DNA of 45,657 nt from Actinomycetes bacterium (GTDB lineage Bacteria; Actinomycetota; Actinomycetes; Actinomycetales; Dermatophilaceae): the NCBI GenBank assembly GCA_021783215.1, contig JAJXUB010000007.1:1-45657 (forward strand), read 5' to 3'. The stretch's first letter is position 1, and every line of letters begins with the position of its first letter. A model generated the notes under the pieces. It had not been told where the DNA came from, ran no database searches, and was given only the letters and a program-made list of their open reading frames with translations. Below, piece after piece: positions 25,379-44,295 of this stretch. Made by a program: the position numbers and the translations under genes.

Positions 25379-25452
25379 GGACGTATAGCTCAGTTGGTTA
25401 GAGCGTTCGCTTCACACGCGAAAGGTCAGGGGTTCAAGTCCCTTTACGTCCA
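25379..25452 (+). tRNA. tRNA-Val (anticodon CAC)
   Basis: A full cloverleaf can be drawn: acceptor GGACGTA pairs with TACGTCC, D stem GCTC/GAGC, anticodon stem TTCGC/GCGAA around loop TTCACAC (anticodon CAC, reads GTG), a 5-nt variable loop, T stem AGGGG/CCCTT around TTCAAGT, and discriminator A at 25452. The terminal CCA is not encoded (next bases are CCC), which is normal for actinobacteria. It stands alone, on + strand. Confidence 0.96.
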
Positions 25453-25453
25453 C

Positions 25454-25523
25454 CCCCCTCCCGTCGTGCGTCTGCGTAGTCGCTGCCTATGGCCAGCGAT
25501 TACGCAGACGCACGACGAGGGGG
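25454..25523. repeat. Very long near-perfect hairpin between convergent tRNA-Val and GH1 gene
   Basis: Arms at 25462-25478 and 25501-25517 are perfect 17-bp inverted repeats (CGTCGTGCGTCTGCGTA). One G-T pair and six inner pairs (TCGCTG/CAGCGA) extend this to 24 stacked pairs around an 8-nt loop. Outside, CCCCCT (25454-25459) can pair with AGGGGG (25518-25523) past a CC bulge. It could be a two-way terminator; the length and perfection also fit a dispersed palindromic repeat. Confidence 0.85.
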
Positions 25524-25537
25524 AGCGGGGGGCGAGC

Positions 25538-26893
25538 TCACGCGCGCGAGCGGACCTGGGCGATGGTGTCGCGGTACCAGGCATACGAGTCCTTGGGCGT
25601 GCGCGCCTGGGTCGTGTAGTCCACGTGGACGATGCCAAAACGCTGGAGGTAGCCCTCCGCCCACTCGAAGTTGTCGAGCAGGCTCCACAGGAAGTAGCCC
25701 GCGACGTCGATGCCCTCGGCGCGTGCCGCCACGACGGCCCGAAGGTGGGCGTCGAGGTAGTCGATGCGCTGCTGGTCGTGGACGAGTCCGTCGATGCCGG
25801 GCCCGACGGCATACGCGGCGCCGTTCTCCGTGATGTGGACGGGTGGAAGGCCGTCCCCGAAGCGGTCCCGGAGCCACCGGAGGATCTCGAGGAGGCCCTG
25901 AGGGTAGACCGGCCAGTCGAAGTCGGTCCGCTTCGGCGTCGCGAACGGGACCAGCCGGGCGGGGATCCCGTCAATCTCCGCGGGGTGGCCGGCATCGGGA
26001 GCGGCGAGCGCCGTCGGGAAGTAGTAGTTCATCCCGAACAGGTCGAGCGGCGCGTGGATGACACGCAGGTCCTCCTCGACCGGTCCGGGCATCCGCTCCG
26101 CGTAGCCCTCGGGATAGCTCCCTGCCAGGATCGGTTCGACGAAGAGCTCGTTGTGGAACGCCGCGTAGGCCGCCGCGGCTGCCCGGTCGGCGTCGGAGCC
26201 GGTCGTCGGATGCGCCGGCGTGAGGTTGCACGCCGACCCGACGGACCTGGCACCGGCGGCCCGGAGCCGCTCGACCGCCAGGCCGTGGCCGAGCAACAGG
26301 TGGTGGGCGACGGGGAGCGCGTCGGCCCCAAGCGTCCGCCCCGGTGCGTGGATGCCCCGGGCATAGCCGAGGTCCATGACGACCTGTGGCTCGTTGACCG
26401 GGAACCAGATGGCGACCCGATCGGCGAGCCGCTCGGCGACGGCCGTCGTATAGTCGCCGAACCGCAAGGCCGTCTCACGGTCGAGCCACCCGCCGCGTGC
26501 CTCCAGGGCGGACGGCAGGTCCCAGTGGAAGAGCGTGGCCGCCGGCTTGATCCCCTTGGCGCACAACGCATCGACGAGACGGTCATAGAAGCCGAGACCC
26601 TCGGGGTTGATCGCGCCGGCGCCGTCCGGCTGCACTCGCGGCCACGCGATGGAGAACCGGTAGGCGTCGATGCCGAGCCCCGCCATGAGGTCGACGTCCG
26701 CCGCCCACCGGTGGTAGTGGTCGTCGGCGACCGCCCCGCTGCTCCCGTCGCGGATCGCACCAGGCCGCTCGCAGAAGTCGTCCCACACGCTGCGTCCCCG
26801 GCCCCCCTCCGAGACCGCGCCCTCGATCTGGTAGCTCGCCGTCGAGGTCCCGAAGACGAAGTCGGCGGGCAGGTCCAGCGGTTCCGTCGTCAC
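25538..26893 (-). CDS. GH1 family beta-glucosidase
   Basis: 451 aa, the normal GH1 length. It starts at GTG 26893; a longer frame adds 32 shadow-like residues. The start [18 protein letters not shown] is the GH1 N-terminal signature. The acid/base Glu is E168 (FPVNEP) and the nucleophile is E356 (HITENG). No signal peptide, so it hydrolyses imported beta-glucosides or related disaccharides in the cytoplasm. TACGCT seven bases before the GTG points to a leaderless message. No sugar transporter or LacI gene is adjacent. Confidence 0.93.
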
Positions 26894-27026
26894 ACGCTTC
26901 AGCGTAGGGGGGCCGAACTCGGTCGTGGGGCTCCGGCTCGGACGGATAGGCTCGACACGGCCTGTCCCGTATGCCGGCCACCGGTACACCGGACCTCACC
27001 GTCACCTCCTTAAGGAGCAGAGCGCC

Positions 27027-41976: not shown

Positions 41977-44295
41977 ATGGCGGAGTCGACGAGGGCAGGC
42001 GGCGGGTCGAGCCGCGCCCGTGCCCGCGCGCGACTGGCGTGGATCGGCGGCGGTCCACGGCCGACGGCGACGAACCCGGCCCTCGAGCCGATGCTCGCCA
42101 TCGTCCACGCGACGCACCCCAAGGCCGACCTCTCCGTGCTCACGCGCGCGTATGCGACGGCCGCGGCGGCCCACGAGGGGCAGCTGCGCAAGAGCGGGGA
42201 TCCCTACATCACCCACCCCCTCGCCGTCGCGACCATCCTCGCCGAGCTCGGGATGCCCCCGACGACGCTCGCCGCTGCCCTTCTTCATGACACGGTGGAG
42301 GACACGGCATACGGGATGGACCGGCTGGAGAGGGAGTTCGGGCCGGAGATCGCCAAGCTCGTCGACGGCGTCACGAAGCTGGACCGGCTGACCTACGGGG
42401 ACGCCGCAGCGGCGGAGACGGTTCGCAAGATGATCGTCGCGATGGCCAAGGACATCCGCGTCCTGCTCATCAAGCTCGCCGACCGGCTCCACAACGCGCG
42501 GACGTGGCGCTATGTGTCGAAGGAGTCGGCGCAGCGCAAGGCGACCGAGACCCTCGAGATCTACGCGCCGCTCGCGCATCGGCTGGGGATGAACACGATC
42601 AAGTGGGAGCTGGAGGACCTGGCCTTCCAGACGCTCTACCCCAAGGTCTACGACGAGATCGTGCGCCTCGTCGCCGAGCGCACCCCGGCCCGGGAGGAGG
42701 CGCTCGCGAAGATCAGCGAGCAGGTCCTCGCGGACCTCACGGCGGCCCGGATCAAGGCCGTCGTCACGGGCCGGCCGAAGCACTACTACTCCGTCTACCA
42801 GAAGATGATCGTCGGCAAGCGGGACTTCGACGACATCCACGACCTCATCGCCGTCCGAGTCCTCGTCGACACCGTCCGTGACTGCTACGCCGCGCTCGGT
42901 GCGCTCCACGCTCGGTGGCTGCCGGTGCCGGGCCGGTTCAAGGACTACATCGCCAAGCCGAAGTTCAACACGTACCAGAGCCTCCACACAACCGTCGTTG
43001 GCCCGGAAGGCCGCGTCGTCGAGATCCAGATCCGCACGCATGCCATGCACCGCAAGGCGGAGTACGGCGTCGCCGCGCACTGGAAGTACAAGGAGGACAC
43101 CCGCGCCGGCCACAAGGAGGCCCGTCCCCTCGCCGTCACCGAGACCGAGAGCACGGAGATGACCTGGCTGCGCCAGCTCATGGACCTCCAGCGGGAGGCC
43201 TCGGACCCGGAGGAGTTCCTCGAGTCACTCCGGTTCGAGATCATCGAGGACGCCGTTTACGTCAACACCCCACGCGGCAAGGTCATCGACCTGCCCTCCG
43301 GGTCGACGCCCGTGGACTTCGCGTATGCCGTCCATACCGAGGTCGGCCACCGCACCGTCGGGGCAAAGGTCAACGGCCGGCTCGTCCCCCTCGACAGCCG
43401 GCTCGAGAACGGAGACATCTGCGAGATCCTCACGAGCAAGGCGGACGGTGCCGGCCCGTCGCGCGACTGGCTCGCCTTCGTCGCGTCGGCGCGCGCGCGG
43501 AACAAGATCCGCCAGTGGTTCTCCAAGGAGAGGCGCGAGGAGGCCATCGAGACCGGAAAGACGGAGATCGCCCGCGCCATGCGTAAGCAGCGCCTGCCGC
43601 TCCAGCGCCTCATGTCCGTCGAGGTTCTCACCGGGGTCGCGACGGACCTCCGCTATGCCGACATCGACGGTCTCTACGCGGCCGTCGGCGAGGGCCACGT
43701 CTCTGCCCAGCATGTCGTCGCCCTCGTCCTCGCCTCCATGGGTGGTGAGGACGGCGCCAACGAGGACATCGCCGAGGCGGCGACGCCGAACCTCGGGCGT
43801 CCGCGGCGCTCCGGAACCGACCCGGGCGTCGTCGTCAAAGGCATGTCGGACGTCTGGGTCAAGCTCGCCCAGTGCTGCACGCCCGTTCCCGGGGACGAGA
43901 TCCTCGGGTTCGTCACCCGAGGGAACGGGGTCTCGGTCCATCGGCGTGACTGTACGAACGCCGAGAACCTCCTCGCCCAGAAGGAACGTCTCGTCGAGGT
44001 CGAGTGGGCGCCGACGACGTCGAGCCTCTTCCTCGTCCAGCTGCAGGTCGAGGCGCTCGACCGGAGCCGGCTCCTCTCTGACGTCACGCGGGTGCTGTCG
44101 GACAACGGGGTCAATATCCTCTCGGCGAGCGTGCAGACCTCGAGCGACCGCACGGCCTACCTGCGGTTCACCTTCGAGATGGCCGACCCGACCCACCTCG
44201 ACCACGTCATGCGGGCCGTGCGAAAGGTCGACGCCGTGTTCGACGTCTACCGCTCGACGGGTCGCCGCGGCGAGGAGGAGCCGACCATCGCGTGA
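41977..44295 (+). CDS. relA: Bifunctional (p)ppGpp synthetase/hydrolase (RelA/SpoT homologue)
   Basis: 772 aa, full Rsh layout. The hydrolase HD domain is intact (H66, H104-D105 in LLHDTVED, and later [12 protein letters not shown]); the synthetase domain holds [13 protein letters not shown] and [21 protein letters not shown]; then TGS ([32 protein letters not shown]), a zinc-finger/helical part with [15 protein letters not shown], and a C-terminal ACT domain. It makes and breaks the stringent-response alarmone according to ribosome state. Both active sites look functional, as expected for the sole Rsh of an actinomycete. The next gene is convergent. Confidence 0.96.

Follow-up and report, generated by a model that had tools for sequence, protein, structure and literature searches.

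What is a long, nearly perfect hairpin doing between a tRNA-Val gene and a converging glycosyl hydrolase gene, and does it belong to that locus in particular? A sequence-only reading had offered three answers: a two-way terminator, a dispersed palindromic (REP-like) element next to a tRNA, or a small structured RNA. In the window (the whole 45,657-nt stretch of DNA analysed here) tRNA-Val(CAC) occupies 25379..25454 on the + strand, ending just 5' of the hairpin and outside it. The converging neighbour on the - strand is a glycosyl hydrolase family 1 (GH1) gene (25538..26989), whose nearest named homologue is from Janibacter (59%).

The left arm of the palindrome (25456..25485, + strand) starts 2 nt past the end of the tRNA gene and consists of an outer CCCTCC followed by CGTCGTGCGTCTGCGTAGTCGCTG; the right arm (25494..25523, + strand) is 90% complementary to it over 30 nt, with a spacer of 8 nt. 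A pair-by-pair check of the + strand gives 17 Watson-Crick pairs, one G-T pair and six more, the uninterrupted 24-bp stem with 8-nt loop that had been read from the letters. The 6-bp outer stem proposed at the same time is real as pairing but shorter than claimed, with five pairs (one being T-G) behind a C-A mismatch. On the - strand the G-T pair turns into an A-C mismatch. The minimum free energy (MFE) of the RNA at 25440-25540 is -75.1 kcal/mol, compared with -39.05 +/- 3.96 for 200 dinucleotide shuffles (z = -9.1), none of which was as low. Of the 23 inverted-repeat pairs listed for the window (with arms >=14 nt and a distance <=60), no other combines arms >18 nt with >=90% complementarity. 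An Rfam scan found tRNA (25379-25452) as the sole family, which lends no support to a small structured RNA.

Within the arms, TGCGTCTGCG (25467..25476, + strand) and its inverted copy (25503..25512, - strand) are common to other copies in the same genome and in related genera. They bound a 46-nt core (25467..25512, no strand assigned), the basis of the genome-wide counts, which lies 25 nt from the GH1 stop codon. The variable middle (25477..25502, no strand assigned) is made up of a genome-specific mid-stem ‘dialect’ and the centre CCTATGGC.

The window is also rich in a different motif. There are 20 occurrences of the octamer GGCATACG/CGTATGCC in it (e.g. 42303-42313), 59 in about 80 kb of loci from the same genome (also L100-L112) and 18 in 80 named bacterial loci, nearly all of them actinobacterial loci, that total 862 kb; near-matches to CGTATGCCGTG number 12 in the window (0.74 expected). 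The octamer is possibly a Chi-, uptake- or segregation-type motif.

Copies in the same genome and in relatives

A unique and unconserved core would have told against the sequence-only reading, but the core is repeated in its own genome (G000) and in relatives, as the idea of a dispersed REP-like element had it. In G000, a palindrome of ~46 nt is present in 15 full copies and a sixteenth that has decayed; its arms (TGCGTCTGCG...CGCAGACGCA) are near-invariant and its middle is variable and mostly self-complementary. A DNA search of this genome returned 25 matches on both strands. Fourteen places match the pattern TGCGTCTGCG-N12-40-CGCAGACGCA exactly, and their paired arms account for 28 of the 35 TGCGTCTGCG 10-mers in the genome. 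A covariance model built from 12 equal-length copies (the three of 15 with length changes were excluded) gave 33 rows at E<=1, corresponding to 16 places on both strands and one partial match. Because the search model was derived from the conserved arms themselves, arm conservation across the matches is partly built in. In the G000 alignment the middle varies yet stays paired, with both-side changes at 12 of 27 pairs (26 cells), a count that none of 500 shuffles matched.

The neighbouring genes in G000 are ordinary and mostly metabolic; Pfam assigns a family to 25 of 29 flanking proteins and none to four. One copy (L103 1342-1387, contig C179) is placed unlike the rest, between divergent genes and upstream of a family 4 glycosyl hydrolase. 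A tRNA scan of 13 other copy-bearing stretches of G000 rules out a tRNA-linked element: two hold a tRNA, ~2 kb from the palindrome, and the tRNA-Val beside the present copy is incidental.

In the family, 18 of 119 genomes (G000 included) have matches at E<=0.001, nine of them with 7 or more rows, and 101 have none, members of carrier genera among them. The exact pattern is found in 16 of 396 genomes drawn from the order, where only G000 and five genomes of genus g18 have more than one copy and non-family genomes have one each, and in four of 396 drawn from the phylum, where one genome (G748) has three. Copy number is 16 places in G000 and up to about 20 in relatives. On a gatA+groES tree of 30 genomes, the 11 multi-copy genomes all fall within one branch of 17 rows; G022, recorded under the genus of G089, is separate from G089 on this tree. 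Searches of plasmids gave one chance-level match (E 0.5), and those of viral contigs and of 80 named loci (0.86 Mb) gave none. As far as searched, the element is confined to one branch of one actinobacterial family. In a limited literature collection, searches on Actinobacteria and on Intrasporangiaceae/Dermatophilaceae turned up no report of a matching repeat by title and abstract.

Eighty copies were compared, 64 of them from other genomes and chosen as the higher-scoring among the matches listed; one, from G068, looks like an unrelated palindrome and was kept. Most of the 64 have arms of the form TTGCGTC[T/C]GCG. Each genome has its own mid-stem dialect, with a mean identity of 0.55-0.88 within and 0.22-0.58 between genomes; the G017 values are lowered by one copy (L215) that is one base out of register. 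The arm dialect (T or C) is mostly uniform within a genome, at sites shared with other genomes too, and some copies in G007 combine arm halves of two types.

Placement at gene ends

With genes called by a codon-usage gene finder and partly checked by Pfam (the 29 flanking proteins from G000), 66 of the 80 copies are intergenic and 14 lie in ORFs. The intergenic copies are found between convergent (29), co-directional (32) and divergent (5) genes, and the median distance from core to nearest stop codon is 12 nt. A 3' end lies <=40 nt from the core in 55 of the 66, compared with a mean of 17.1 under random placement, and the five divergent copies compare with a mean of 22.7; 0/5000 random placements were as extreme.

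The short distance to stop codons and the many convergent sites speak for a host bidirectional terminator, or for an mRNA 3'-end or processing hairpin (e.g. an RNase III site), with a conserved sequence copied by selection at gene ends. So do the stability of the hairpins (genome means of the MFE over 70 nt are about -39 to -51 kcal/mol) and compensatory change, significant in G000 by the shuffles above and in G089, where mid-stem pairing within copies is better than with swapped halves (0/2000; G000, 34/2000). However, pairing is no better than with swapped halves in G007, G086 and G017 (589, 660 and 686 of 2000), so what is conserved is less an unbroken hairpin than the arms themselves. A U-tract is lacking: the longest T-run in the 15 nt past the core is 0-2 on 88 of 90 strands and 3 on two. 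Copies also occur at the groES-groEL, gatA-gatB and paaB-paaC junctions, and 14 of the 80 lie in ORFs, two of which (L207 and L211) are weak, so that these copies may be intergenic. Since a strong terminator inside operons and ORFs would harm expression, such copies, the missing U-tract and the patchy presence in relatives make selection for a terminator or processing hairpin an unlikely origin of the repeats. An efficient intrinsic terminator is rejected as their general role, given the missing U-tract and the operon and ORF copies. What survives of the two-way terminator is its position just past stop codons and, in many cases, between converging genes, and at convergent copies the palindrome may act in this way.

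Insertions, shared sites and mobility

Thirteen of the 14 in-ORF copies share one frame, encoding ASAD...SADA (12 in phase and one with its core cut one base short; binomial p 6e-6, treating copies as independent), and L113 is the one in another frame. Inside an ORF the element lengthens the protein by about twenty amino acids. Tandem pairs were also seen (G017, L212 1531-1674 and L216; G086, L205), some within one ORF, giving a protein with two ASAD...SADA inserts.

At the end of gatA, the element lengthens the protein in four of 30 genomes (G000, G007, G392 and G089); none was found there in the remaining 26, which include five more of the genus of G392 (gatA of G012 is split and its gene end was not read). 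On the gatA+groES tree this pattern takes four gains or losses, at least three of them forced by well-supported branches. In G007 the element lies in an FdrA-like ORF, at a point where the stretch in G086 is shorter and different. No clean target-site duplication was found at the gatA or FdrA-like sites, the two with an empty counterpart, where the homologues have diverged.

The groES-groEL junction holds the element in five of 30 genomes (G017, G392, G452, G086 and, decayed, G089). In the copies of four g18 species, one of 22 arm columns varies compared with 12 of 39 flank columns (Fisher p=0.02); seven of 10 mid-stem columns and two of 16 centre columns vary. The first 12-13 pairs are intact, with partial pairing further in. 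Judged from these four sequences only, there seems to be constraint on the arms, even where a copy was apparently inherited. Many family genomes have a separate hairpin, CGTATGCCGTGGGC...GCCCACGGCATACG, just 3' of groES (e.g. L283, L265 and L281).

Two observations would suit a site where a host protein of the nucleoid, replication or repair binds DNA by reading both arms, the dialects following changes in the protein: in copies of four species at one junction the arms are far better conserved than the middle, and the arm dialect is mostly uniform within each genome, shared sites included. A strong preference for 3' ends is needless for a DNA site, however, and the in-frame protein insertions and the absence from 101 of 119 related genomes, among them members of carrier genera, also count against a binding site, which we regard as very unlikely.

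The hairpin is, in our judgement, probably a copy of a REP/RPE-like, non-autonomous dispersed palindromic element, with a repeat unit of about 46-60 bp, inverted arms of ~11 bp and a genome-specific middle. Against mobility it is to be said that no mobiliser, clean target-site duplication or transposition was seen; sites common to different species (groES-groEL, four g18 species) also fit a selected host function. The RAYT/Y1 transposase domain (PF01797) was found in none of the 26 family genomes searched (G000 and 25 relatives) and in five of 14 control genomes, and Pfam, which was also given one protein of G017, identified no transposase among the 29 flanking proteins of G000. A special case of the mobile reading makes the element a MITE: its arms would be the terminal inverted repeats of a conventional (DDE) transposon whose autonomous form is lost or unseen. 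The palindrome is short, geneless and dispersed with inverted arms at both ends, as a MITE would be, but no clean target-site duplication was seen at the two sites with an empty counterpart, where the homologues compared are diverged, and no transposase was found among the G000 flanking proteins, and we think this origin improbable.

For the REP/RPE-like element, the arms would be recognition sites for a trans-acting enzyme other than RAYT/Y1, which would mobilize it. Copies would survive where they do little harm, in 3' UTRs, short operon junctions and flexible protein tails. Its transcript would fold into a stable hairpin, with protection of 3' ends, RNase III cleavage or a contribution to termination as possible side effects. 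More tentatively, and with some doubt on our part, the TTGCGTC[T/C]GCG arms could be read by a non-RAYT enzyme or host factor that co-evolves with the element, giving one dialect per genome even at sites shared with other genera, while the palindrome spreads and remodels protein tails.

These copies place REP/RPE-like palindromes, protein-coding insertions included, in a lineage of high-GC actinobacteria where no RAYT was found. Who moves palindromes that have no dedicated transposase is a question that PMC3733652 raises for CGTC REPs. Genus g18 could serve to study it: several of its species are sequenced, sites occur both filled and empty, and copy numbers are modest. For annotation, the element explains SADA-rich protein inserts and cautions against calling these hairpins terminators.

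Comparison with known systems

TRIT is a conserved-sequence terminator family of M. tuberculosis. It too is a conserved-sequence hairpin at gene ends in a high-GC actinobacterium, and is set apart here by its description: the present element also occurs inside operons and ORFs and is without a U-tract. The name TRIT appears in PMC3526491.

REPs of the GTAG and CGTC superfamilies are dispersed short palindromes, found for the most part between ORFs that converge or run in the same direction, about 20 bp or less from a stop codon; some lie in ORFs, where dimers encode 20-30 amino acids, and related species share recB sites (PMC3733652). Our element is likewise short, dispersed and near stop codons, with some copies in ORFs and some sites shared. 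CGTC-type REPs have no dedicated transposase and REPtrons can be lost, according to the same text, and for our element, too, none was found. Unlike these REPs, it has no unpaired GTAG/CGTC tag, 8-9 bp stem-loop or CCA tail, being one long near-palindrome with paired arms. None of the 80 copies has GTAG in the 12 nt scanned next to its arms. CGTC (or a listed variant) with an 8-9 bp stem and a 4-5 nt loop is present by pattern in 21 of the 80; in six such examples, the CGTC is internal to the large palindrome, and the letters after it are GAC or TAC rather than CCA. A head-to-head CGTC REP dimer is rejected on this test of tag, stem and tail. Copy number differs as well, in the tens rather than the more than 100 per genome usual for REPs (PMC2817692). 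In the wide (untagged) sense of REP, the element was found to be dispersed, mostly intergenic, close to 3' ends and rarely divergent. Untagged REP-like families in M. tuberculosis are cited in PMC3733652, the main text of which does not contain the string ‘actinobacteri’.

Rickettsia palindromic elements (RPEs) are in-frame palindromes in unrelated protein genes that add a recurrent peptide; they are ~150 bp long and mostly intragenic, as described in PMC10969869 and PMC2996958. The present element shares the in-frame insertion into unrelated protein genes (14 of 80 copies, 13 in one phase), with empty counterparts for the FdrA-like gene and gatA, but is 46-60 bp long and mostly intergenic (66 of 80). 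We file it as a variant of the REP-like palindromes that would stand outside any named family.
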